A stretch of DNA of 64,000 bases from Intrasporangium calvum DSM 43043 (GTDB taxonomy: Bacteria > Actinomycetota > Actinomycetes > Actinomycetales > Dermatophilaceae). Positions 36,388 to 49,625 of the stretch are shown here, one piece after another. The notes beneath the pieces were generated by a model. It saw only the letters and a list, made by a program, of their open reading frames with translations, made no database searches and was not told where the DNA came from. How positions within the stretch are numbered: position 1 is the stretch's first letter; every line of letters begins with the position of its first letter. The DNA lies in assembly GCF_000184685.1 (NCBI RefSeq), contig NC_014830.1, positions 124,001-188,000 on the forward strand. The letters run 5' to 3'. The translations under genes were made by a program, and so were the position numbers.

Positions 36388-37863
36388 TCATCGACGGTTG
36401 CGTCGTTCGATCGCCGCGCTGAGCACCGTGGCGAAGCCGCACCACGCCACGTAGGGCACGAGGGCCCGGCCGGCGACCGGGTTGACCGCAGCGGAACGGC
36501 GCGCCAGGTCCGCTCCGCTCGCGGTCAGGACGGCCGACTCGAGGGCGGCGGCCCCAGGCCTCCGGGCCCGCCAGAAGACGACGCTCCACCCCGCGTTGAG
36601 GGCGAGGTTGGCGCCCACCGCGGCGAGGTACGTCCGGCGCTTCCGTGCCGCCCCCTCGCCCTCGCGGTCGAGGCCGGTGAGCGTCGCCGCGGTGGAGGCG
36701 GCGAGGTCCGCGTAGAGGAGACTCCAGACGATGGGGAAGGTCGCCTTCGGCGGTTGCCAGGCCGGCAGGTCGAGACTGCGATACCACCGTGAGTCGGGCT
36801 GGGTGGCGAGCGAACCCACGACCGCGGCAGCCGTGACAGCCGCACCGGTGAGTGCGAGGTTGCGCAGTGCCGTGTCCGGCGTGGTCCCCTCCATCGCCCG
36901 TCGCACCGCGTCGTCGAAGCCGGTGAGCCCTCCGGGCACGGGGACGAGCTCGAGCAGGTCCGACTCCTTGGCGACGACCTCGTGGACGAGGCTGCCGACG
37001 AGGGGTTTGGCGATGCCGGCGCCGATCGGGGTGACGAGGCCGACCCAGTGGCTGGCGAGGCGTGGGGTGAGGACGGGGATCGTCACGACGACCCGCTGAC
37101 GCATTCCTGTCACGGCGGCGAAGCGCTGGATCATCTCCCGATAGGTCAGCACGTCCGGGCCGCCGATGTCGAAGGTCCGGTTCGCGTCAGCGGGCAGGTC
37201 GGCCGCGCCGGCCAGCAGCGTGATGACGTCGTCGACGGCGATGGGCTGGATCCGGTTGTCGAGCCACTTCGGCGCCACCATCGCGGGAAGGCGGGTGGTC
37301 AGGTGGCGCAGCATGTCGAAGGAGACCGACCCGTCGCCGAGGACGACGGCCGCCTGCAGCACGGCCGTGGGCACCCCTGACTCGAGCAGGATGCGCCCCA
37401 CCTCGACGCGGGAGGCGAGATGCGGTGACAGCTCCTCGCCGGCGGGGTGGAGCCCGCCGAGGTAGACGATGCGTTGCACGCCGGCGTCCCGCGCCGCGGA
37501 GCCGAAGGTGTCCGCCGCCTCCCGGTCGCGCTCGGCGAAGTCCGGCTCGTCGTCCATCGAGTGCACGAGGTAGTACGCCGTCCGTATGCCGCTGAGCGCC
37601 TTCCCGAGGTCGCCGCGGTCCGCGACGTCCCCCACGACGACCTCGACGTCCCTCGCCCACGGGCGGGCGTCGAGCGACCCGGCCCGTCGGGTCAGGACCC
37701 GGACCTGCCAGCCCTCGGCGAGCAGCCGGGGGACGAGCTGGCCGCCGATGTAGCCGGAGGCGCCGGTCACCAGCGCGGTTCGGCCGTCGTTCGGCTCGGC
37801 CGGGCCGTTCTGCGAGCGGATGGTCGGGCTGCGTGTCGGGCTGGGAGTGGGCTGGGTGGTCAA
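36388..37863 (-). CDS. NmrA/SDR-like reductase fused to a TspO/MBR domain
   Basis: 491 aa, TTG start with GAGGTGA 6 bases upstream. Residues about 28-335 are an extended SDR/NmrA-like NAD(P)-binding domain (ALVTGASGYIGGQLVPRLLA, YYLVHSMDDEPDF, RIVYLGGLHP). Residues about 355-490 have the TspO/MBR pattern (WYRSLDLPAWQPPKATFPIV, WSLLYADLAAST, NLALNAGWSVVFWRARRPGA, LVPYVAWCGFATVLSAAIE), five membrane helices that in TspO bind porphyrins. It starts 4 bases after the CPBP gene and is the last gene of the photolyase operon. An enzyme tethered to a porphyrin/light sensor fits a photo-oxidative stress role; this is inference. Confidence 0.82.
   Translation of the reverse strand: MTTQPTPSPTRSPTIRSQNGPAEPNDGRTALVTGASGYIGGQLVPRLLAEGWQVRVLTRRAGSLDARPWARDVEVVVGDVADRGDLGKALSGIRTAYYLVHSMDDEPDFAERDREAADTFGSAARDAGVQRIVYLGGLHPAGEELSPHLASRVEVGRILLESGVPTAVLQAAVVLGDGSVSFDMLRHLTTRLPAMVAPKWLDNRIQPIAVDDVITLLAGAADLPADANRTFDIGGPDVLTYREMIQRFAAVTGMRQRVVVTIPVLTPRLASHWVGLVTPIGAGIAKPLVGSLVHEVVAKESDLLELVPVPGGLTGFDDAVRRAMEGTTPDTALRNLALTGAAVTAAAVVGSLATQPDSRWYRSLDLPAWQPPKATFPIVWSLLYADLAASTAATLTGLDREGEGAARKRRTYLAAVGANLALNAGWSVVFWRARRPGAAALESAVLTASGADLARRSAAVNPVAGRALVPYVAWCGFATVLSAAIERRNRR
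37583..37600 (-). repeat. Dispersed motif copy inside the SDR-TspO gene
   Basis: CGTATGCCGCTGAGCGCC; encodes ALSGIRTA. Confidence 0.6.
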
Positions 37864-37867
37864 GGGT

Positions 37868-38587
37868 TCACCTCACGAGGTCGAGGACGGGTGGGAGGAG
37901 CAGGAGCATCCCGGTCGACCACGTGACATGCGTGATGACCGGTCCGAGGATCCCGCCGGTGACGCGTCGCTGCAGGGCGGTGACGAGGCCCACGACGACG
38001 GCCGCGAGGACGAGCAGGGGCACGCCGCTGCCGACCGTGGTCAGCGCGTAGAGCACGGTGGTCACGGCCACGGCATGCTTGGGGAGGGCCGCGTAGAGGG
38101 CGCCGCGGAAGTACAGCTCCTCGGCGATCCCGTTGAGCACGGTGATGCCGAGCACCACGGGCAGGGACCCGAAGCGGGCGTGGTCGAGCAGGTCGTCGAC
38201 CGGGGCCCGGAGCACCGGGATGCGGGCGACGACGAGGGCGCCGGCGAGGAAGGCCCCGAGGAGGAGTCCGCCCAGGGCCAGGGACTGGAGGACGGGGCGT
38301 TCCCGAGCACCCCGGCGGGTGTGCCCGAGACCGAGGCGGAGCGGCCCGGAGAGGACCGCGCCCAGGCACCACACTCCGGCGAGGCCGAGGGTGGCGGCGT
38401 AGAAGAGGGCGTCACCGGGCCGGATCCGCAAAGCCCAGGCGAGCAGGGCCGCGCCGACCACGAGACTGAGCGCGACGACGACCCGGCGCCGGAGCCGCAT
38501 CTCGGGCGGGTCGGGTCGGGCGTCGACGACGGGTCGCACGAGGGCGGCGTCGAGGAACGCCCTCAGCTCGGCCACCGGGCCTCGCAC
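37868..38587 (-). CDS. CPBP-family intramembrane metalloprotease
   Basis: 239 aa, GTG start with AGGAGG 8 bases upstream, 4 bases after the photolyase stop. Six to seven hydrophobic helices; the Abi/CPBP signature is EELYFRGALYAAL near residue 165 (EExxxR), with a later His in THVTWSTG. Family members are membrane-embedded glutamate/zinc-type proteases or protein-maturation factors. Its place in the operon between photolyase and the SDR-TspO gene implies joint expression with the light-response genes; its substrate is unknown. Confidence 0.85.
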   Translation of the reverse strand: MRGPVAELRAFLDAALVRPVVDARPDPPEMRLRRRVVVALSLVVGAALLAWALRIRPGDALFYAATLGLAGVWCLGAVLSGPLRLGLGHTRRGARERPVLQSLALGGLLLGAFLAGALVVARIPVLRAPVDDLLDHARFGSLPVVLGITVLNGIAEELYFRGALYAALPKHAVAVTTVLYALTTVGSGVPLLVLAAVVVGLVTALQRRVTGGILGPVITHVTWSTGMLLLLPPVLDLVR

Positions 38588-38591
38588 CAGG

Positions 38592-39959
38592 TCACCTCCT
38601 CGACAGCTCGTAGCGGGCCAGGGCCTCCCTGCGCTCGGCGTCGTGGTCGACGACGCGGCCCGGATACCCGTGCGCATACCCGTTCGGGTGGTCCCAGGGC
38701 TCGTGCACGGCCGGACCCGCCAGGTGCCCGAGCTCCGGCACCCACCGTCGCACGTAGTCGCCCTCGGGGTCGAAGCGGTGGGCCTGCCGGAGCGGGTTGA
38801 GGACGCGGAAGTACGGTGCGGCGTCGGTGCCGGTCCCGGCCACCCACTGCCAGCCGTGGCTGTTCGAGGCGATGTCGCCGTCGAGGAGCTGGTCGAGGAA
38901 GTAGCGGGCGCCGACGGGCCACCAGACGTGGAGGTCCTTGGTGAGGAAGCTCGCGGTGATCATGCGCAGCCGGTTGTGCATCCAGCCCTCTCCGAGCAGC
39001 TGGCGCATCCCGGCGTCGACGATGGGGTAGCCGGTGCGCCCCTCCCGCCAGGCGGCGACGAGCCGGTCGGTCTCCGGGCCGTCGTCGTACGACATCCGGC
39101 CGAGATCGGGCCGCAGGTCCTCCCACGCCGACTCGGGCCGGTGCCAGAGGACGTCGGCGTAGAACTCCCGCCAGGCCAGCTCGGTGACGAAGGTGGCTGC
39201 CCCGCCCGTGCGACCGTCCGGGTGGGAGGCGATGTCCGCGAGCAGGGTCCGAGGATGGATCTCCCCGTACTTCAACGGGACGGACATCCGGCTCGTGGCG
39301 TCGAGGTCCGGTCGGTCGCGGTCCTCGGCGTACCGGCCCAGCCGCCCCTCGGCGAGGAAGTCGAGCCAGCGGGTGCGTGCCGCCGCCTCGCCGGCGATGC
39401 CCCCGGGTCCGCCGGCCGCCGCGACGGCCGGCAGCGCCAGGCCCCCTACGTCGCCGTCGAACCAGGGGATCCGCAGCGGTGGCGCAGCCGGCGGCGGAGA
39501 GCCGTGGGCCCGCCACGCCCTGGCGAACGGGGTGAAGACGCGGTAGGGCGCGCCGCTCTGGGTGACCACGAGACCGGGCCCAGCGGCATACGGCGTGCCG
39601 GTCGCGACGAGGCGACGACCCTCCGACTGCAGGGCGACCTCGACGGCAGCGTCCCTCGTGCGCCCGAAGGGCGTCGTCTCCCGGGTGACGTGGACCGACT
39701 CCGCGCCGACCTCCCGGGCGACCTGCGGGATCACGTCGACCGGGTTGCCGGTGCGGACGACCAGGTGCCCGTCGAGGGAGTCGGCGAGCGCCCGCAGGGA
39801 GGTGATGAGCCGCCGTGACCGTGGCTGCCCGGTCTCGAGCAGCCTCGGGTCGAGCACGAAGACCGGCAGCACCGACGTCCCCGAGTCCAGCGCGGCGAGC
39901 AGGGCGGGGTGGTCCGACACCCGCAGGTCGCGCCGGAACCAGAGGACCGAGACGGTCAC
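38592..39959 (-). CDS. phrB: Deoxyribodipyrimidine photolyase
   Basis: 455 aa. The GTG start overlaps the SDR stop (GTGA), which fixes it; VTVSVLWFRRDLRVSDHPAL is the canonical photolyase N terminus. The C-terminal FAD-binding domain shows TGYPIVDAGMRQLLGEGWMH, NRLRMITASFLTKDL, DGDIASNSHGWQWVAGTGTD and APYFRVLNPLRQAHRFDP. It repairs cyclobutane pyrimidine dimers using blue light. A dispersed motif copy at 39576-39595 encodes PYAAGPG in the N-terminal antenna domain. It is the fifth gene of a seven-gene operon headed by the FAD oxidoreductase. Confidence 0.95.
   Translation of the reverse strand: MTVSVLWFRRDLRVSDHPALLAALDSGTSVLPVFVLDPRLLETGQPRSRRLITSLRALADSLDGHLVVRTGNPVDVIPQVAREVGAESVHVTRETTPFGRTRDAAVEVALQSEGRRLVATGTPYAAGPGLVVTQSGAPYRVFTPFARAWRAHGSPPPAAPPLRIPWFDGDVGGLALPAVAAAGGPGGIAGEAAARTRWLDFLAEGRLGRYAEDRDRPDLDATSRMSVPLKYGEIHPRTLLADIASHPDGRTGGAATFVTELAWREFYADVLWHRPESAWEDLRPDLGRMSYDDGPETDRLVAAWREGRTGYPIVDAGMRQLLGEGWMHNRLRMITASFLTKDLHVWWPVGARYFLDQLLDGDIASNSHGWQWVAGTGTDAAPYFRVLNPLRQAHRFDPEGDYVRRWVPELGHLAGPAVHEPWDHPNGYAHGYPGRVVDHDAERREALARYELSRR
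39576..39595 (+). repeat. Dispersed motif copy inside phrB
   Basis: GGGCCCAGCGGCATACGGCG; contributes PYAAGPG. Confidence 0.7.
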
Positions 39960-40708
39960 GCCCGGCCACCCCGGGAGGTGAGTGTCGTCCACAGCCGGCC
40001 GGGGACGAGACGGGCGACCGCCATCGCGACCGCCATCCGCTTGGGAAAGACGATGGTGTCGTCACCGCGCTCGAGGCCGTCGGCGATGGTGCGCCCCGCC
40101 TCGTCGGCGTCGATGAGGAACGGCATGGGGAACTCGTTGACCGAGGTCATCTCGGTGCGGACGAAGCCCGGCGCCACCGTCGTCACCCGGACCCCGTGGG
40201 GTGGCAGGGACGCGCGCATGGCCTCGAGGAGGTTGAGCTGCGCCGCCTTGGTCGCACCGTAGGCCTCGGACCCGGCGAGGCCGCGGTAGCCCGCGACCGA
40301 CGCGATGCCGACGACGTGGCCGCGGCCCTGCTCCACGAACCCGGGCACGACCGAGGCGAGGACGTTGTTGAGGCCGAGCAGGTTGACCTCGACGTGGCGG
40401 GCGAAGACCTCGCGGTCCCAGCTGGCCGCGTCGAACTGCTTCCAGTAGCCGGCGCTGTGGATGACCATGTCGAGGCCGCCCAGGCCGTCCCGGACGGCGT
40501 CGGCCGCCTCGGCCACGGCGTCGGCGTCCGTGACGTCGACCGGGACGCTGCGCATGCGCCCCCCCGACACCGCCTCCAGCTCGCTCGCCCGGCGTCCGCT
40601 GACCGCTACCGAGGCGCCCCGCCGGACGAGCTCGTCGGCCAGCTGCGCCCCGATCCCGCTGGACGCGCCGACGACCCAGACCCGCTGGCCGCTGAGCGCC
40701 GTCCTCAC
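39956..40708 (-). CDS. Short-chain dehydrogenase/reductase
   Basis: 250 aa, GTG start overlapping the cfa stop by 4 bases (GTGA), and its own stop overlaps the photolyase start the same way. Classical SDR motifs: VWVVGASSGIGAQLADELVR (TGxxxGxG type), IHSAGYWKQF (NAG-like), catalytic Ser in GIASVAGYRG and YGATKAAQLNLL (YxxxK). It is probably an NADP-dependent oxidoreductase of a lipid intermediate, given the flanking Cfa-like methyltransferase and FAD oxidoreductase; the substrate is not known. Confidence 0.9.
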   Translation of the reverse strand: MRTALSGQRVWVVGASSGIGAQLADELVRRGASVAVSGRRASELEAVSGGRMRSVPVDVTDADAVAEAADAVRDGLGGLDMVIHSAGYWKQFDAASWDREVFARHVEVNLLGLNNVLASVVPGFVEQGRGHVVGIASVAGYRGLAGSEAYGATKAAQLNLLEAMRASLPPHGVRVTTVAPGFVRTEMTSVNEFPMPFLIDADEAGRTIADGLERGDDTIVFPKRMAVAMAVARLVPGRLWTTLTSRGGRA

Positions 40709-42015
40709 GCTGCGTCCTGCGCCACGCCCGCGGACGGCGAAGCACCGCGGACCGTGTCGGGACCCTGCCGCTCGAAGCGGATCTGGGCGACGTCGAGGTA
40801 GCCGGAGTCGAAGCCGGCCTCGCAGTAGGCCAGGTAGAACTCCCACTTGCGGCGGAAGGTCTCGTCGAAGCCGAGCCGCTCGACCTGCGGCCACTGCGCC
40901 ATGAAGGTCGCCCGCCAGCGGCGGAGCGTCTCGGCGTAGTCGAGCCCGAACCGGTGGACTCCCGTCACCCGCAGCTCGGTGCCGCGCTGGGTGACGTCGG
41001 TGATCGCGCGCAGGCTGGGGATGAGCCCGCCGGGGAAGATGTGCTTCTGGATCCAGCCGTAGGAGCGCCGCGTCACGAGGTAGCGGTCGTGGGCCATCAG
41101 GATCGCCTGGATCGCCGCGACCCCGCCCGGCGCGAGGAGGCTGTCGATGGCGCGGAAGTAGGTGGGCCAGTACTCCTCGCCGACCGCCTCGATCATCTCG
41201 ACCGAGACGATCGCGTCGTAGCTGCCGCGTGCCTCGCGGTAGTCCTCGAGGCGGACGTCGACGCGGTCCGCGACGCCGGCGGCCGCGGCGCGGTCGCGGG
41301 CCAGGGCCGCCTGCTCGCGGGAGAGCGTCAGGGTCGTCACGTGAGCCCCCCTGCGGGCCGCCTCGATCGCGAGGGTCCCCCAGCCCGTGCCGATCTCGAG
41401 GACGGTGGTGCCGTCGCCGACGCGTGCCTCGTCGAGGATCGCGTGGACCTTGCGCAGTTGGGCGTCCTCGAGCGACTGCCCCTCGAGCGGGGCCGTCCGG
41501 TCGAAGAGAGCCGAGCTGTACGTCAGTGTCTCGTCGAGGAAGGCGGCGAAGAGGTCGTTGGACAGGTCGTAGTGCGCCTCGATGTTGCGGCGGGACCCCG
41601 TCAACGTGTTGCGCTGGTCGTGCGGGATGGCACGGTCGACGACCTGCCGGAGGGCGACCCACCTGCGTGGGATCGCCGTCGTGAGCCGCGCGGCGAAGGG
41701 TCGCAACACGTCCGCGAGGTCGGTGCCCGGCGCGGCGCGCCAGTCGCCGGCCATGTAGGCCTCGCCGATGCCGATCTTCGGGTGGTGGGCGAGGCGCTCG
41801 AAGAAGGCTGAGGGCCGTCGCAGCTCGACGGTCGGCCGGATGCCGCTGGGCTCGCTCCCGCTCGCGGCGGACCTTCGCAGCGGGGAGCCGTCGGGGAGGA
41901 CGACGTCGACGGGCACCCGGTCGAGGACCTGCTCGAAGATGGTGCGTGCGAGCTTGGCCTGCAGACGGACCGGTGCGAGCGTCGGGACGATGGGGCGGGG
42001 CTGGATCGTGGTCAT
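40705..42015 (-). CDS. cfa: Cyclopropane-fatty-acid synthase-like methyltransferase
   Basis: 436 aa, ATG overlapping the DUF1365 stop (ATGA). The CFAS features are SRRNIEAHYDLSNDLFAAFL, FLDETLTYSSALFD, the SAM-binding VLEIGTGWGTLAIEAARRGA, YDAIVSVEMIEAVGEEYWPT and WIQKHIFPGGLIPS. It methylates double bonds of phospholipid acyl chains. Homologous sets (FAD oxidoreductase, DUF1365, Cfa, SDR, photolyase) belong to light or singlet-oxygen regulons in other bacteria, where modified (for example furan) fatty acids are implicated. A dispersed motif copy at 41837-41859 encodes GSEPSGIRP near residue 55. Confidence 0.92.
   Translation of the reverse strand: MTTIQPRPIVPTLAPVRLQAKLARTIFEQVLDRVPVDVVLPDGSPLRRSAASGSEPSGIRPTVELRRPSAFFERLAHHPKIGIGEAYMAGDWRAAPGTDLADVLRPFAARLTTAIPRRWVALRQVVDRAIPHDQRNTLTGSRRNIEAHYDLSNDLFAAFLDETLTYSSALFDRTAPLEGQSLEDAQLRKVHAILDEARVGDGTTVLEIGTGWGTLAIEAARRGAHVTTLTLSREQAALARDRAAAAGVADRVDVRLEDYREARGSYDAIVSVEMIEAVGEEYWPTYFRAIDSLLAPGGVAAIQAILMAHDRYLVTRRSYGWIQKHIFPGGLIPSLRAITDVTQRGTELRVTGVHRFGLDYAETLRRWRATFMAQWPQVERLGFDETFRRKWEFYLAYCEAGFDSGYLDVAQIRFERQGPDTVRGASPSAGVAQDAA
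41837..41859 (-). repeat. Dispersed motif copy inside cfa
   Basis: GGATGCCGCTGGGCTCGCT with CCGCT following; encodes SEPSGI in the N-terminal region of the methyltransferase. Confidence 0.75.
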
Positions 42016-42767
42016 CGGGCTGCCTCCTCCAGGCGGTGTGGGCGGGGGACCACGGGCAGGCGTCGCATCCACAGTCGCACGCCGTGCCACCGGATGAGGG
42101 CCGTGACGCGGTACGTCATGAGGGCGTGGCGGGCGGTGGTCGAGAGGATCGTGCGGAGCGTGGCGGGTCTCGGCCGACCCGACACGGAGGCGTCGAGGAT
42201 CGGCTGACCGTCCCGGGTGAGCCGGATGGCCACGGCGACGCGCTGCTCGTCGAGGACGAGCCGGACGTGGTATTCGCCGGAGACGTCGTTGAACGGAGAG
42301 ACGTAGAACGCCTTGTCGACCACTGCGCGGCCATGGTCGTCGACGTCCACGAGGTAGGCGTGCCGGCCTCCGTAGGTGTTGTGCACCTCGAGGACCGTCG
42401 CGACGAGCCGTCCGTCGGGGGCAATGCACCAGAAGACGCTCAGGGGGTCGAAGACGTGCCCGACGGAGCGGGCGTGCGCGAGCATGAGGACCCGCGCGCC
42501 GGCTGGCAGGGCGACCCCTCGGCTCGCGAGGAACCGGTCGAGGTCGCCCCTGATCCCGCCTTCCTCGTGTCCGCCGTCGAGGTGGTCGGCGGGGTCGAAC
42601 CGGGCGAGGACGGACAGCGGCCACGGCAGGCGGGGCAGGTCGTCCAGGTCGACGAGCCACTGGTGGTGGCGGTGGCGGAAACGGTGCGTCACCGGGGTCC
42701 GGCGGGTGTGGGACACGACCCCTTCGACGAGGCTCGGGACCCGGGGCGGCCTGATGGACGGGCTCAC
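42012..42767 (-). CDS. DUF1365 protein
   Basis: 251 aa, GTG start overlapping the FAD oxidoreductase stop (GTGA). DUF1365 blocks are seen in order: VVSHTRRTPVTHRFRHRHHQ, LMLAHARSVGHVFDPLSVFW, LEVHNTYGGRHAYL and KAFYVSPFNDVSGEYHVRLV. The biochemical role is unresolved; the family nearly always sits between a COG2907 FAD oxidoreductase and a Cfa-like enzyme, and is assumed to act in the same lipid modification. The coupling here makes a stoichiometric relationship with both neighbours likely. Confidence 0.9.
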   Translation of the reverse strand: MSPSIRPPRVPSLVEGVVSHTRRTPVTHRFRHRHHQWLVDLDDLPRLPWPLSVLARFDPADHLDGGHEEGGIRGDLDRFLASRGVALPAGARVLMLAHARSVGHVFDPLSVFWCIAPDGRLVATVLEVHNTYGGRHAYLVDVDDHGRAVVDKAFYVSPFNDVSGEYHVRLVLDEQRVAVAIRLTRDGQPILDASVSGRPRPATLRTILSTTARHALMTYRVTALIRWHGVRLWMRRLPVVPRPHRLEEAAR

Positions 42768-44044
42768 CAGGACACCCCGAACGACTGGGCCGCCTCGACG
42801 CCGGAGCGGCAGCCGTCCTCGTGGAAGCCCCAGCCGAGATGCGCTCCCGCGAAGGCGAGCCGCTCACCCCCGGCCGAGCGGAGCCGGCCGGCCGCGGCGA
42901 CGGCAGGTGCGGTGAAGACGGGGTGCTCGTAGGAGAGGTCCGCCGTGACCGTGTCCGGGTCGACGTGGTCGCCGGGGTCGAGGGTGACGATGTGGTCCTC
43001 GGTGCCGGGGAGGCCCTGGAGCCGGTTCATCCAGTAGCTGACGGCGACCTGGGGGCTGGGCGCGTCGCAGGACTGCATCCGGTAGTTCCATGCCGCGCGG
43101 GCCTGCTTCGCGGCCGGCAGCACGGACGAGTCGCGGTGCAGCCACACGGTGTTGCGCGAGTACCGGATCGCGGCGAGGTCCTCTTTCTCCTGGGGCAGTG
43201 CGTCGGCGAGAAGGTCGAGGGCCTGGTTGGCGTGGGTGGCGATGACCACCCGGTCGAACCGCTCTGGGGCGGCGTCGCCGACCCGGACGTCGACCCCGTC
43301 GTCGTGCCGCTCGACCGCGGTGACCGGGGCCGACCGACGCACGTCGGCCAGCCTGGCGACGAGGCGGTCCACATACGTCGCCGAGCCGCCGACGACGGTG
43401 CGCCACTCCGGGGACCCGCTGACGGTGAGCATGCCGTGGTGGTCGAGGAACTGGAAGAGGTGTCGTGCCGGGTAGGTCTCGGCGTCGAGGTCACCACAGG
43501 ACCAGACGGTGGCGACGAGCGGGATGGCGAAGTGGCGCACGAAGTAGGTCGAGAAGCGGCCCTCACGGAGGAACTCTCCCCAGGTCGGCTCGGCTGACGG
43601 GTCGGCGAGCAGGCGCCTGGCGGCGCGGTGGAACCGGGGGACCTCGGTCAGCAGCCGGACGAACCGCGGGTCGGCAGCCCGCCAGGGCTGGGCGAGGATG
43701 CCGGCCAGACCGCGACCCCCGGCGTAGGAGAGCCCGCACTGCTCGCAGGTGATGCTCATGCTCATCTCCGTCGGGCGGGTCTCGACGTCGAGCTCGGCGA
43801 AGAGGCGCAGCAGGTGCGGGTACGTCCGCTCGTTGTGGACGATGAACCCGCTGTCGATCCGGAGCGGGCTCGCGCCGGCGGTGGACCCGCCGGCCGGCAC
43901 CGTGTGCGTGTGGGCGTGCCCGCCGACTCGCTGGTCCGCCTCGAAGAGGGTCACCGCGTCGGTCCGGGACAGCACGTGCGCGGCGGTCAGGCCCGCGACG
44001 CCCGCGCCGATGACTGCGGTGGTCTGTGGCCGGCTCTGGTTCAT
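42764..44044 (-). CDS. FAD-dependent oxidoreductase (COG2907-type amine-oxidase fold)
   Basis: 426 aa, ATG with GAGGGAG upstream. The dinucleotide-binding motif AVIGAGVAGLTAAHVLSRTD is at residues 11-30, followed by VTLFEADQRVGGHAHTH. Further conserved parts are DSGFIVHNERTYPHLLRLF, ATVWSCGDLDAETYPARHLF and the C-terminal FAD contact GERLAFAGAHLGWGFHEDG. It is a desaturase- or oxygenase-like flavoprotein presumed to act on acyl chains. It is the first gene of the seven-gene operon; a TTGACA-N18-TACATT promoter lies about 90 bases upstream, inside the repeats that probably bind the divergent MerR/B12 regulator. Confidence 0.9.
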   Translation of the reverse strand: MNQSRPQTTAVIGAGVAGLTAAHVLSRTDAVTLFEADQRVGGHAHTHTVPAGGSTAGASPLRIDSGFIVHNERTYPHLLRLFAELDVETRPTEMSMSITCEQCGLSYAGGRGLAGILAQPWRAADPRFVRLLTEVPRFHRAARRLLADPSAEPTWGEFLREGRFSTYFVRHFAIPLVATVWSCGDLDAETYPARHLFQFLDHHGMLTVSGSPEWRTVVGGSATYVDRLVARLADVRRSAPVTAVERHDDGVDVRVGDAAPERFDRVVIATHANQALDLLADALPQEKEDLAAIRYSRNTVWLHRDSSVLPAAKQARAAWNYRMQSCDAPSPQVAVSYWMNRLQGLPGTEDHIVTLDPGDHVDPDTVTADLSYEHPVFTAPAVAAAGRLRSAGGERLAFAGAHLGWGFHEDGCRSGVEAAQSFGVSW

Positions 44045-44134
44045 GGTGCTCCCTCGGGGGCGTGCGGTCGCGTCGACGACCAGCCATTCGGAGCCGACGG
44101 GCGGCTGGATGGGACTTTCCCTGGCGTGGAACTC

Positions 44135-44169
44135 AATGTAGAGTCGATGTATAAGGTTTGTCAAAGGTT
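44135..44169. promoter_or_regulatory. Divergent promoters with three 11-bp direct repeats (CarH/LitR-type operator)
   Basis: TGTAGA, TGTATA and TGTCAA start at 44137, 44148 and 44159, exactly 11 bases apart. On the minus strand TTGACA (44164-44159) and TACATT (44140-44135) with an 18-base spacer form a near-consensus promoter for the FAD oxidoreductase operon; on the plus strand TGGAAC (44127-44132), 17 bases, TATAAG (44150-44155) is a weaker one for the SRPBCC gene. CarH-type regulators bind 11-bp direct repeats, so binding here would cover both promoters. Confidence 0.7.
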
Positions 44170-44185
44170 CGTTCAGGAGGAAGCC

Positions 44186-44614
44186 ATGCAGTTCGTCCGC
44201 ACGCTCACCGTCCCCGTTCCGGCCGACCGGGTGTTCGCGTACCTGGCCGACTTCACGACCACGACCGAGTGGGACCCGGCCACGGTCCGCACGGAACGCA
44301 TCTCCGGCACCGGGGGGGTCGGCACGCGCTATCGCAACCGCTCCCGGTTCATGGGGCGCGAGGCCGAGGTGGACTACGTCGTGACCGAGCTCGACCCGGG
44401 GCGCCACATCCTCCTTCGCGGGGAGAACCAGAGCCTCGTCGCGCACGACGACATGACGGTCGAGGGGGATGCGTCCGGGGCCACGGTGACCTACTCGGCG
44501 TCGTTCGACCTCAAGGGGCTGTGGAAGCTCGCCACCCCCGTCCTCGCGCCGGCCCTGAAGCGCCTGGTCGACCAGGGTGCCGACGGTCTGCGACGCACGC
44601 TGCACACGCTGTGA
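44186..44614 (+). CDS. SRPBCC-family protein
   Basis: 142 aa, ATG with AGGAGG 6 bases upstream. MQFVRTLTVPVPADRVFAYL and DFTTTTEWDPATVRTERISG are the start of a polyketide-cyclase/START-like lipid-binding fold; SASFDLKGLWKLATPVLAPA is its C-terminal helix. It could carry a hydrophobic intermediate of the adjacent lipid-modifying operon. It shares the control region with that operon and is followed 25 bases later by the MerR/B12-binding regulator gene, so regulator and target appear to be expressed together. Confidence 0.85.
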   Translation: MQFVRTLTVPVPADRVFAYLADFTTTTEWDPATVRTERISGTGGVGTRYRNRSRFMGREAEVDYVVTELDPGRHILLRGENQSLVAHDDMTVEGDASGATVTYSASFDLKGLWKLATPVLAPALKRLVDQGADGLRRTLHTL

Positions 44615-44639
44615 GCTCTGGACCTAGACTCGACAAACC

Positions 44640-45554
44640 ATGTACACCATCAAGCGCGCTGCCGAGCTGACCGGCATCAGCCTGTCCACCCTGCGGGCCT
44701 GGGAGCGGCGCTACGGCGTCGTCAGCCCGGTGCGCTCGGACGGCCGTTACCGCCTCTACTCCGCCGACGACCTGCGCGCCCTCGGCATCATGGCGGCGCT
44801 CGTCAACGAGGGCTGGTCGGCTCGGGAGGCGGCCGCCGAGACCAAGGCTCGCATCGAGGGCTCCGCACAGCGTGGCGGCCCACTGTCGCAGGTCGACGGC
44901 GGCCCGGGCCCTCGACCGGAGGCCTCGGTCCTCCCGCGCGTCGACGAGCTCGTCGCCGCAGCCGGGCGACTCGACACGGTCGCTGTCTCCGACATTCTCG
45001 ACGAGGCCTTCAGCCGCGCAGGTTTCGAGAGGGTCGTCGACGACTGGCTCATGCCTGCCCTCAGCGTCATCGGCGAGTCCTGGGCTGACGGGAGGATCTC
45101 CATCGCGGGCGAGCACCTGCTCAGCCATGCGATCCAGCGTCGGCTGGCGGCGGCCTACGAGGCGGCCGGGGCCAGGACCTCTGGCCCGATCGTGACGCTG
45201 GGTCTCCCGCCCGGTGCGCGGCACGAGCTGGGGGTCCTCGCCTTCGCCGTGGCCCTTCGCCGGGCCGGCTACTCCACTGCGTACCTCGGAGCGGACCTGC
45301 CGGCGGGGGACTGGGGTGAGGCTGTGGCGGCCCGCGGCGCCACCGCGGTCGTGCTCGCGGTGCCGCGAGCCGCGGATGTCGTCCCGGCCCGCCAGGTGTG
45401 CGAGGAGCTGCTCGCTGCCCATCCTGATCTCGTCGTCTTCGTCGGGGGCGGAAGGCAGGACGAGGTCGGTGCTGGGTCCGTCCCCCTCGGGCACGACATG
45501 CGCACTGCGGTCGAGGCCGTGGACTCGGCGCTGAACGCGCGCCGCCCGGCGTAG
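44640..45554 (+). CDS. litR: MerR-type regulator with B12-binding domain (CarH/LitR-like photoreceptor)
   Basis: 304 aa. The MerR HTH is at 1-70 (YTIKRAAELTGISLSTLRAW, ERRYGVVSPVRSDGRYRLYS). The cobalamin-binding part has W148 and E158-H159 in SWADGRISIAGEHLLSHA, matching the W-x9-EH light-sensing signature of CarH, and the lower-ligand His is H195 in PPGARHELG, where CarH has Glu two residues before this His and here it is Ala. A Rossmann-type B12 domain follows (VVLAVPRAADVVPARQ, VVFVGGG). In this family adenosylcobalamin-bound tetramers repress in the dark and dissociate on illumination. Its likely targets are the divergent photolyase operon and its own operon; cobD occurs 3 kb away. Confidence 0.87.
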   Translation: MYTIKRAAELTGISLSTLRAWERRYGVVSPVRSDGRYRLYSADDLRALGIMAALVNEGWSAREAAAETKARIEGSAQRGGPLSQVDGGPGPRPEASVLPRVDELVAAAGRLDTVAVSDILDEAFSRAGFERVVDDWLMPALSVIGESWADGRISIAGEHLLSHAIQRRLAAAYEAAGARTSGPIVTLGLPPGARHELGVLAFAVALRRAGYSTAYLGADLPAGDWGEAVAARGATAVVLAVPRAADVVPARQVCEELLAAHPDLVVFVGGGRQDEVGAGSVPLGHDMRTAVEAVDSALNARRPA

Positions 45555-46786: not shown

Positions 46787-48568
46787 GTGACCGACCAGCG
46801 CGAGGGAGCCGCCGGGTGGGCGCGGTTCGCCCCCGGCCTGGGCGTGCTCCTCTCCTACGACCGGACCTGGCTGCGCGGCGACGTCCTCGCCGGCGTCACC
46901 GTCTCGGCCTACCTCGTCCCACAGGTCATGGCCTACGCGGAGGTGGCGGGGCTCCCCGCGATCACCGGGCTGTGGGCGTGTGCGCCGGCCCTCGTCGTCT
47001 ACGCGCTCCTCGGGTCGTCGCGGCAGCTGTCCGTCGGCCCCGAGTCGACGACGGCCCTGATGACCGCGGCGGGCATCGGCGCTCTCGCAGGTGCGGCCGG
47101 CGGCGGTCGCCACGCGGAGCTGGCTGCCCTGCTCGCCCTCGCCGTGGGCGTCGTCTGCGTCCTCGCGTGGCTCGTCCGGCTCGGGTTCCTCGCCGAGCTC
47201 CTGTCGAAGCCGGTGCTCGTCGGCTACATGGCCGGTATCGCCGCGCTCATGGTGGTCAGCCAGCTCGGCAAGATCACCGGGATCGAGGTGGAGAGCGGCA
47301 CCTTCCTCGAGGAGGTCGGCTTCACGGCGACCCACCTCGGTGAGGTGCACGGTCCCACCCTGGCGGTTGCTTCCGGTGTCCTCGTGGTGCTGCTGGCCTT
47401 CGGCCGCTGGGCGCGGCGCTGGCCGGGCCCGCTCATCGCGATGGTGTCGGCCGCGGCGCTCGTCCACGTCCTGGGGCTGACGGACGAGGGCGTCCGGGTC
47501 GTGGGCGAGGTGCCCCGGGGGCTGCCCCCGCTGAGCGTGCCCCAGCTCGACGACGTCGAGATCTGGAAGCTCCTGCCAGCGGCCGTGGGGGTCGCGGTCG
47601 TGGCCTACAGCGACAACGTGCTCACCGGTCGCGCCTTCGCCCTCAAGCGCCGCGAGACGATCGACAGCAACCAGGAGTTCGTCGCGCTCGGCGCCGCCAA
47701 CATCGCGTCCAGCCTCGCGTCCGGGTTCCCGGTCAGCTCGAGCGGCAGCCGCACCGTGCTCGCCAACGCGATGGGGGCCCGCACGCAGCTGCACTCGCTC
47801 GTGTCCGTCGCCGTCCTCGCGGCGACGATGTTCTGGCTCGGGCCGGTGCTCGCGACGTTCCCGACGGCGGCCCTCGGGGGCGTGGTCGTCTACGCCGCGC
47901 TGCGCCTCGTCGACGTGGCCGAGCTGCGGCGGATCACCGGCTTCCGGCACAGCGAGCTGGTCCTCTCGCTCGCCACGACGGTGGCGGTCCTCGGGTTCGG
48001 CGTCCTGCCGGGCATCGGGGTGGCCATCGTCCTGTCCGTGCTCGACCTGCTGCGGCGGATCGTCCACCCGCACGACGGGGTCCTCGGCTACGTCCCCAAC
48101 GTCGCCGGCATGCATGACATCGACGACCACTCCAACGCCGTGCAGGTGCCCGGTCTGGTCGTCTACCGCTACGACTCCCCACTGTTCTTCGCCAACTCCC
48201 ACGACTTCGTCCGGCGCGCCCTGCAGGCGGTGGCCGACTCCCAGCGGACGGCGCCGGTGGAGTGGTTCCTGCTCAACGCCGAGGCCAACACCGAGGTCGA
48301 CCTCACGGCCGTCGATGCCCTCGACACGTTGCGGCTGTCCTTGGCGGACGAGGGGATCCGGTTCGCCATGGCCCGAGTGAAGCAGGACATGCGCGAGCCG
48401 CTCGACGCAGCGGGGTTCGTCGACAAGGTCGGCGAGGACCACATCTTCCCCACCCTGCCGACCGCGGTCGCCGCCTACGCGAAGTGGTACGAGGAGCACC
48501 ACGGCCGCCCGCTCGAGGGGCTCGAGATCCCGCCGGTGCCGAGGCAGCCGCGCCCCCCCGAGCGCTAG
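46787..48568 (+). CDS. SulP-family anion transporter with STAS domain
   Basis: 593 aa, GTG start with TACGTT 7 bases upstream. The membrane part (about 1-420) has VTVSAYLVPQVMAYAEVAGL, GLWACAPALVVYALLGSSRQ and LSVGPESTTALMTAAG, the SulP signature; the cytoplasmic STAS domain runs about 450-570 (VVYRYDSPLFFANSHDFVRR, FLLNAEANTEVDLTAVDALD). It carries sulfate, bicarbonate or another anion in exchange or with cations. Three short CGGCCGGT repeats lie just ahead of the promoter (46751-46773). Its TAG stop overlaps the facing cobD stop within CTAG. Confidence 0.9.
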   Translation: MTDQREGAAGWARFAPGLGVLLSYDRTWLRGDVLAGVTVSAYLVPQVMAYAEVAGLPAITGLWACAPALVVYALLGSSRQLSVGPESTTALMTAAGIGALAGAAGGGRHAELAALLALAVGVVCVLAWLVRLGFLAELLSKPVLVGYMAGIAALMVVSQLGKITGIEVESGTFLEEVGFTATHLGEVHGPTLAVASGVLVVLLAFGRWARRWPGPLIAMVSAAALVHVLGLTDEGVRVVGEVPRGLPPLSVPQLDDVEIWKLLPAAVGVAVVAYSDNVLTGRAFALKRRETIDSNQEFVALGAANIASSLASGFPVSSSGSRTVLANAMGARTQLHSLVSVAVLAATMFWLGPVLATFPTAALGGVVVYAALRLVDVAELRRITGFRHSELVLSLATTVAVLGFGVLPGIGVAIVLSVLDLLRRIVHPHDGVLGYVPNVAGMHDIDDHSNAVQVPGLVVYRYDSPLFFANSHDFVRRALQAVADSQRTAPVEWFLLNAEANTEVDLTAVDALDTLRLSLADEGIRFAMARVKQDMREPLDAAGFVDKVGEDHIFPTLPTAVAAYAKWYEEHHGRPLEGLEIPPVPRQPRPPER

Positions 48569-49521
48569 CGCCGGGGTCGCGGGAGGAGCGCGAGGGCGAT
48601 CGCACCCACGAGGGAGAAGGTTCCCACGCGGCGGGACAGCCGGTTCGCCCGCGCGATGTCGGATGCCGCTGGGCTCGGCCCCGTGCCCAGGGTCCCTCGG
48701 TCCTCGGCCCGGCCCTCGTACACGTTGGTCCCTCCCAGGGTGACGCCGAGGACTCCGGCGAACGCCGCCTCGACGACGCCGCCGTTGGGGCTCGGGTGGG
48801 CCGGGGCGTCGTGCCGGATCGCCTCGCGGGCGCGGGACACCGCCAAGGAGTCGCCGTCGAGCGCCGCGCCCGTCAGTGCGGCTCCCGCGGCGACCCGGGC
48901 AGGGACCCAGTTCACGAGGTCGTCCAGCCGCGCCGCCGCCCAGCCGAAGTCGCGGTACCGCGGCGTCCGGTGGCCGATCATCGCGTCGAGGGTGTTGACG
49001 GCCCGGTAGCCGACGAGCCCGGGGATCCCGAGCAGGCCGCCCCAGAGCAGCGGGGCGACCACCGCGTCCGAGGTGTTCTCCGCGACCGACTCTACGCACG
49101 CCCGGGCCACCTCGTGCTCGTCGAGCCGGGTCGTGTCGCGCCCGACGAGGTGGCGCAGCCGTCGTCGGGCGGCCACCCGGTCCCCGGACGACAGGTGCCG
49201 GCCGATGACGTCGCCCTCGCGCACCAGGGAGCGCCCCCCGAGCACGGCCCACGTCGCCGCCGCGGTGGCCGCCACATGGACCACGGGGGAGTGCCGCGTC
49301 GCCCGCTCGGCGACGAGCCCGAGGGCGGCCGTGGAGCCGACGAGCAACGCGACGTGACGGACCCCGGCAGCGCGCCCAGCGGCATACGTCCGCTGCTCGA
49401 CGGCCGCTGCCGCGGTCCCGAAGCCGGCGACGGGATGCCAGCGCCTCGGGTCGCCGAGGAGACGGTCCGCCACGAAACCCACCGCGAGCCCCACGGCCCT
49501 CGATCCGACGCCCTTCCGCAC
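48565..49521 (-). CDS. cobD: Adenosylcobinamide-phosphate synthase CobD/CbiB
   Basis: 318 aa from the GTG at 49521 (GGAGGG 6 bases upstream). Membrane protein with VGFVADRLLGDPRRWHPVAG, SVAENTSDAVVAPLLWGG, GYRAVNTLDAMIGHRTPRYR and HPSPNGGVVEAAFAGVLGV, all CobD signatures. It attaches aminopropanol (phosphate) to adenosylcobyric acid in B12 synthesis. Two dispersed motif copies lie inside: 49372-49388 (TYAAGRAAG) and 48661-48679 (PSPAASDI). Adenosylcobalamin made by this pathway is the chromophore expected for the regulator at 44640. Other cob genes are not in the window except a CobF-like fusion at 55335. Confidence 0.92.
   Translation of the reverse strand: MRKGVGSRAVGLAVGFVADRLLGDPRRWHPVAGFGTAAAAVEQRTYAAGRAAGVRHVALLVGSTAALGLVAERATRHSPVVHVAATAAATWAVLGGRSLVREGDVIGRHLSSGDRVAARRRLRHLVGRDTTRLDEHEVARACVESVAENTSDAVVAPLLWGGLLGIPGLVGYRAVNTLDAMIGHRTPRYRDFGWAAARLDDLVNWVPARVAAGAALTGAALDGDSLAVSRAREAIRHDAPAHPSPNGGVVEAAFAGVLGVTLGGTNVYEGRAEDRGTLGTGPSPAASDIARANRLSRRVGTFSLVGAIALALLPRPRR
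48661..48679 (-). repeat. Dispersed motif copy inside cobD (1)
   Basis: GGATGCCGCTGGGCTCGGC; encodes PSPAASDI near the C terminus of CobD, a loop before the last helix. Confidence 0.7.
49372..49388 (+). repeat. Dispersed motif copy inside cobD (2)
   Basis: GCGCCCAGCGGCATACG; encodes TYAAGRA near the N terminus. Two copies in one gene, in opposite orientation. Confidence 0.65.
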
Positions 49522-49625
49522 GGCTGCCCTCCTGTCGCCGCGGGCAGTCTGCCAGATCCCGGACGGGCGTTCCGCAGAGGCGGACGGCACGGGCGCGGTG
49601 GGCCCGGCTGTGGGACAGTGGCGCC

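Follow-up and report, generated by a model that had tools for sequence, protein, structure and literature searches.

Predicted CarH-type operators at the divergent photolyase and regulator operons of Intrasporangium calvum

Described CarH and LitR systems and the Intrasporangium locus

The LitR of Streptomyces is known for light-induced carotenoid genes. As an actinobacterial LitR that uses coenzyme B12 (PMC12705666), it is one of several described systems with which the locus analysed here, contained in a 64-kb window (64,000 nucleotides) of the Intrasporangium calvum DSM 43043 genome, can be compared. Thermus thermophilus CarH (3whp, 5c8d) shares with the regulator of this locus the HTH and the two-part cobalamin-binding domain, W-x9-EH, the lower His, GxxH and GxxxP, and its operator is likewise made of tandem 11-bp units; the published CarH direct repeat is nnnnTnnACAn, with the -35 TTGACA inside one unit (PMC9304148). 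The differences from T. thermophilus CarH lie in the pocket (no His132 and no ExHxxG Glu here), in the operator (two well-conserved units here, three there), in the targets (photolyase and lipid genes, not carotenoid genes) and in the layout, which here combines a predicted divergent promoter sharing its -10 with a candidate extra operator on the regulator's own start codon. Bacillus megaterium CarH, a described photoreceptor, is also alike in having tandem 11-bp operators that overlap the -35 or -10 (PMC9304148), and loci of the B. megaterium group similarly have no upper-ligand His, but the identity is about 26–28% and B. megaterium keeps ExHxxG and four-unit operators.

Other comparisons concern the target genes. 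In Pseudomonas, phrB and genes for a short-chain dehydrogenase (SDR), an FAD oxidoreductase and ufaM adjoin class II LitR, and photolyase, SDR, FAD oxidoreductase and ufaM are targets in the PplR/PmlR regulons (PMC9758184). Unlike the regulator described here, class II LitR has no Rossmann B12 domain, acts via a LOV protein and uses the site TGTACA-N12-TGTACA. In Rhodobacter, a methylated furan fatty acid is the product of UfaD (FAD desaturase), UfaO (DUF1365 oxygenase) and UfaM (CFA-type methylase) (ufaM and RSP1087-1091 in R. sphaeroides; PMC7380195). Expression of those genes rises when the anti-sigma factor ChrR is lost, whereas here their counterparts adjoin a CarH-type regulator.

The locus comprises two divergent operons (Table 1). 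On the minus strand, the genes for an FAD oxidase, a DUF1365 protein and a CFA-type methylase are adjacent and can be likened to UfaD, UfaO and UfaM by protein family; the oxidase and DUF1365 genes overlap in GTGA and are thus probably translated together. In view of the Ufa set and the Pseudomonas class II LitR neighbours, the most fitting reading of this operon is a lipid-and-DNA photoprotection set, whose product may be a furan fatty acid. The position of the CPBP gene in the order is the same in Terrabacter (L040) and Janibacter (L043).

Table 1. Genes, promoter elements and repeat units of the locus (window coordinates)
Feature	Coordinates	Strand	Evidence or remark
NmrA-like/TspO fusion protein, probable last operon gene	36388..37863	-	profile match and gene order
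CPBP-type (Rce1-like) membrane protein, probable operon member	37868..38677	-	profile match and gene order
DNA photolyase	38592..39992	-	PF03441, PF00875
Short-chain dehydrogenase (SDR)	39956..40729 (start codon approximate)	-	PF00106
Cyclopropane-fatty-acid-synthase family methyltransferase, UfaM-like	40705..42015	-	PF02353, 279 bits
DUF1365 protein, UfaO-like	42012..42767	-	PF07103, 225.9 bits
FAD amine-oxidase-type protein, UfaD-like (putative role)	42764..44044	-	PF01593; first gene of the minus-strand operon
Oxidase-DUF1365-CFA-SDR-photolyase operon promoter	44135..44164	-	TTGACA-N18-TACATT
Repeat 1 (TGTAGAGTCGA)	44137..44147	+	pseudo-repeat; orthologues invariant only at bases that the two overlapping -10 boxes require
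SRPBCC-regulator operon -10 TAGAGT	44139..44144	+	TA in common with the minus-strand -10
O1 repeat 2 (TGTATAAGGTT)	44148..44158	+	within the minus-strand promoter spacer, about -24
O1 repeat 3 (TGTCAAAGGTT)	44159..44169	+	complement carries the photolyase-operon -35 TTGACA
Near-match CGTTCA	44170..44175	+	in register, 1 mismatch; possible further pseudo-repeat; column +11 not conserved
SRPBCC/Polyketide_cyc2 protein	44186..44614	+	PF10604, E 1.4e-21; first gene of the plus-strand operon
Regulator-gene -10 TAGACT	44625..44630	+	probable leaderless promoter
Candidate operator O2 (TGTACATGGTTTGTCGA)	44630..44646	-	two tandem 11-bp units over the regulator start codon, inverted relative to O1
CarH/LitR-family regulator, 304 aa	44640..45554	+	MerR HTH, B12-binding four-helix and Rossmann domains

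Two observations stand apart from the question of control. A match between the SRPBCC protein and the NCBIfam model of Rv0910-family toxins was rejected (45 bits against a cut-off of 100), and relatives of this protein in such probably light-regulated operons could be mis-annotated as toxins. The window also carries a dispersed short repeat, GTATGCCGCTGGGCTCG, at positions 2400, 10092, 17506, 27301, 39589, 41840, 48663, 49385, 52950/52965, 55179, 56411 and 59954; ATGCCGCTGGGC is present in 13 exact copies over the 64 kb, within and between genes, the photolyase and CFA synthase genes included, and GGATGCCNCTNGG has 47 matches in the genome versus 0 for its reversed control.

Tandem 11-bp units at O1 and O2

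The initial annotation had described three 11-bp direct repeats over divergent promoters at 44135-44169. Direct reading of the sequence confirms the hexamers TGTAGA (44137-44142), TGTATA (44148-44153) and TGTCAA (44159-44164) at steps of exactly 11, and both promoters were found as claimed, that of the photolyase operon (minus-strand TTGACA at 44164-44159, an 18-bp spacer and TACATT at 44140-44135) and a weaker opposite one (plus-strand -10 TAGAGT at 44139-44144 with a poor -35, TTTCCC, at 44116-44121). Three copies of TGT..A-N5-TGT..A are present in the window, where second-order Markov sequences would lead one to expect 0.06; for the 11-bp triple the figures are one and 0.00. One of the three pairs falls outside the interval first annotated: it spans the regulator's start codon (minus strand, 44646-44630). 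This site, O2, had been missed and is an amendment to the earlier description. Across the 4.02-Mb genome, TGTNNANGGTNTGTCNANG with up to one mismatch matches only O1 and O2, which are 480 bp apart. Since the reversed TGTNNANGGTNTGTCNANG control gave three scattered matches, it is the co-location of both sites at the regulator that is telling and not their count. A relaxed triple returned four extra sites in the genome, none with a plausible light gene adjoining, and these were treated as chance. An Rfam scan of the window gave no RNA family above threshold, indicating that there is no known cobalamin riboswitch in the locus.

To follow these sites in relatives, we used 150 genomes of the host's family, of which 129 contain a match to the regulator (E <= 1e-3); many of these matches are paralogues. 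The best 30 loci were inspected, and 23 of them (that of the window included) have an SRPBCC gene upstream and a comparable region. GTCAAA.GTT, present in 23/23 regions, also served as anchor of the comparison, and columns were counted with one sequence per genus-level group (11 representatives). In repeat 2, each base of TGTnnAaGGT is kept in 8–11 of the 11 representatives, the outer flanks being not conserved. The first T of repeat 1 is present in a single representative (1/11), and its invariant bases are A(-24), T(-20), A(-19) and T(-15) relative to TGTCAA. Conservation in orthologous intergenic regions, the absence of which the initial annotation had named as grounds for refutation, is therefore seen for repeats 2 and 3 and not for repeat 1 as a repeat: as judged from these alignments, only two repeats are conserved as such, and what repeat 1 retains is limited to bases belonging to two overlapping -10 boxes.

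The promoters themselves are conserved too. All 23 regions carry TTGAC(A/G)-N18-TAnnnT on the minus strand and a plus-strand TAnnnT -10 at the same place, the -10 hexamers of opposite strands overlapping with TA common to both; many also have a plus-strand TTGTnn -35 at 17-bp spacing. The O1 region is thus predicted to be a bidirectional promoter whose two directions share one -10, a concept set out in PMC12825309. It could then be argued that the conserved block consists of nothing else than two overlapping sigma-70-type promoters, bound by no regulator, with the 11-bp pattern a by-product of -35 and -10 conservation; the restriction of repeat 1 to -10 bases and the presence of the -35 within repeat 3 are what this would predict. 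However, TGTnnAaGGT of repeat 2 is conserved in the spacer, which sigma does not need, and O2 is oriented opposite to O1. In Janibacter-type loci, moreover, the second unit lies at -46 and not at -24, i.e. it shifts around the promoter yet keeps the 11-bp step, which is unlike a plain promoter. Terrabacter-type relatives have an additional pair of units over the plus-strand -35 (TTGTCCATCCTTCGTCCA).

The period itself also argues for more than promoters. An 11-bp tandem near the regulator start was found in 41 of 80 loci from Actinobacteria, Chloroflexi, Bacillota, Proteobacteria and others, while control periods of 10, 12 and 13 bp were found in 3, 1 and 3 of the same loci. Composition and relatedness are identical for all four periods, so that the 11-bp period is a signal even though the 80 loci are not independent, specific over several phyla. 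Together with the points above, it makes the promoters-only explanation highly improbable. The tandem units match the published CarH repeat and overlap promoter elements of the target genes or of the regulator's own gene.

The motif follows the genes and the regulator family. Scanning the 150 genomes with TGTNNAANGTNTGTCAAANGT (up to one mismatch) gave 53 matches in 43 genomes, compared to two for the reversed control. Thirty-five of the 53 have a regulator match no more than 2 kb away, and seven further ones precede photolyase, oxidase or SDR/SRPBCC genes in split clusters (L162, L164-L166, L169, L171). Elsewhere, in two Knoellia-type species, an 11-bp tandem precedes a glycosyltransferase-domain gene (L158 4010-4050, L159 3966-3986), which suggests a rewired regulon, and in L174 (3169-4069) the motif immediately precedes the gene of a sigma-70-family factor that has regions 2, 3 and 4 and is possibly under light control.

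O2 recurs at a fixed position. T..ACA stands exactly at -10..-5 from the regulator start in 9/30 loci, one 11-bp step ahead of a TGTACA that the start codon helps to form (ATGTACA), against one match in total for the 16 other offsets tested. A TAnnnT box at -15 is found in 10/30 loci, including 8 of the 9 that carry the O2 unit, and as the box ends where the unit begins, a leaderless promoter is suggested. In loci without the O2 unit the regulator is mostly close behind the SRPBCC stop codon. Knoellia-type loci that have no SRPBCC and oxidase neighbours (L017, L028-L031) still keep the operator on the regulator start, which points to autorepression. From the evidence at both sites, O1 and O2 are very probably operators of the CarH-family regulator.

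How the regulator would act on them is a further question. In the manner of MerR, it might activate the photolyase promoter by bending the 18-bp spacer: its HTH is of the MerR family, repeat 2 falls between the -35 and -10 of a promoter that is slightly long, and a Vibrio MerR/LitR homologue has been proposed to act both ways (PMC5241685). Yet the -35 itself lies under the units, which have the period of CarH repressors, and repression is what has been described for CarH/LitR proteins with such sites (PMC9304148, PMC9758184), so that activation is very unlikely and repression remains our reading of O1 and O2.

The regulator and its cobalamin pocket

The regulator aligns to CarH (3whp/5c8d) over the HTH and the cobalamin-binding part with an E-value of about 1e-29. 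PF13411 and PF02607 are above cut-off and PF02310, at 29.9 bits, is just under its cut-off of 32.1, while the NCBIfam CarH equivalog model gives 128 bits, far below the cut-off of 400. W-x9-EH and the lower His, already recognised by the initial annotation, are borne out by the alignment. All four signatures of light-responsive CBDs (GxxW, EH, GxxH and GxxxP; PMC11796333) are present, as GESW, EH, GARH and GADLP, and so are the Arg-Asp pair and two interface glycines (numbering counted on the alignment), the roles of which in CarH are described in PMC9304148. AdoCbl can probably be made by the host, given that the genome encodes the cobalt chelatase CobN, a corrinoid adenosyltransferase and CbiB. 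The CbiB/CobD cobalamin biosynthesis gene is in the window (48565-49590), about 3 kb from the regulator, and is near the cluster in Terrabacter (L040) too.

Several features count against a CarH-like light switch. The position of T. thermophilus CarH (TtCarH) His132 is Ala in all 30 of the closest sequences; the Glu of ExHxxG, two residues before the lower His, is Ala in the regulator (AxHxxG) and Ala, Ser, Val or Gly in its clade, whereas it is kept in most of the non-actinobacterial loci compared; and the equivalog score is low. In addition, class V LitRs of Micrococcales have been described without a B12 domain (PMC9758184), which this regulator has.

The same operators and regulator could in that case sense AdoCbl supply (or redox/oxygen) rather than light, with cofactor supply setting the expression of the locus and light releasing the AdoCbl oligomer only inefficiently for want of His132. 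The loss of both residues in the clade fits this, and in one study TtCarH H132A was found to stay mainly tetrameric in the light, at odds with earlier work that the study cites (PMC10442372). The upper His132, which gives the bis-His light state of TtCarH, is nevertheless not universal in the family ("many" CarH carry it; PMC9304148) and was not treated as defining. The loci of Priestia megaterium and P. aryabhattai (L094, L073) have Arg/Glu at this position, although B. megaterium CarH is a photoreceptor, and CtMerR, with Arg, monomerises in the light (PMC11796333); for these reasons we rejected the argument that a protein without His132 cannot be a photoreceptor. A light switch would also suit photolyase, an enzyme that needs light to work. 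Sensing of AdoCbl supply is accordingly rather unlikely, and the regulator itself is likely to respond to light, by analogy with these proteins.

A predicted light switch and its meaning

The preferred explanation is AdoCbl-dependent repression in the dark from O1 and O2, released by light. In the dark, the AdoCbl-bound oligomer of the regulator would sit on the tandem 11-bp units of O1 (44148-44169, overlapping the -10 region at 44135-44147) and cover the -35 and the -10 region of the back-to-back promoters, blocking both the ufaD-ufaO-ufaM-SDR-photolyase operon and the SRPBCC-regulator operon, while O2, which lies across the -10 and the start codon of the regulator gene itself, would add autorepression. 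Light would cleave AdoCbl, the oligomer would loosen and both operons would be expressed. Binding, AdoCbl dependence, light release and repression rather than activation are what we infer from the computed repeats, their conservation, their association with target genes and the regulator family, and the pocket residues. If O1 and O2 are indeed the operators of this regulator, AdoCbl dependence and relief by light are quite probable, and we consider the explanation as a whole likely. The binding oligomer may differ from those described, as there are two conserved units against three for CarHTt and four for CarHBm. Of the light-inducible, B12-dependent control of the whole locus initially proposed, what stands is a predicted CarH/LitR-type operator for both divergent operons, conserved in orthologues and next to a CarH-domain regulator with AdoCbl-pocket residues; what does not is the count of three repeats.

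The pairing of operator and regulator belongs to the known CarH kind. New are the host family and the genes targeted in this lineage, as are a -10 common to both promoters, a second operator and a pocket without His132 next to intact operators. The CarH operator code would in this way extend to a Gram-positive family (Terrabacter, Knoellia, Janibacter and kin), where it is linked to photolyase and membrane-lipid genes rather than to carotenoids. More tentatively, and with somewhat less than even confidence, these actinobacteria may hold a clade of AdoCbl light switches without the upper His and the ExHxxG Glu, running a furan-fatty-acid/photolyase operon through a shared -10 and an operator on the regulator's own start; such switches would need some other coupling of photolysis to the release of the oligomer. 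With His132 consistently missing alongside intact operators, the disputed bis-His requirement for CarH release becomes directly testable in a natural protein.
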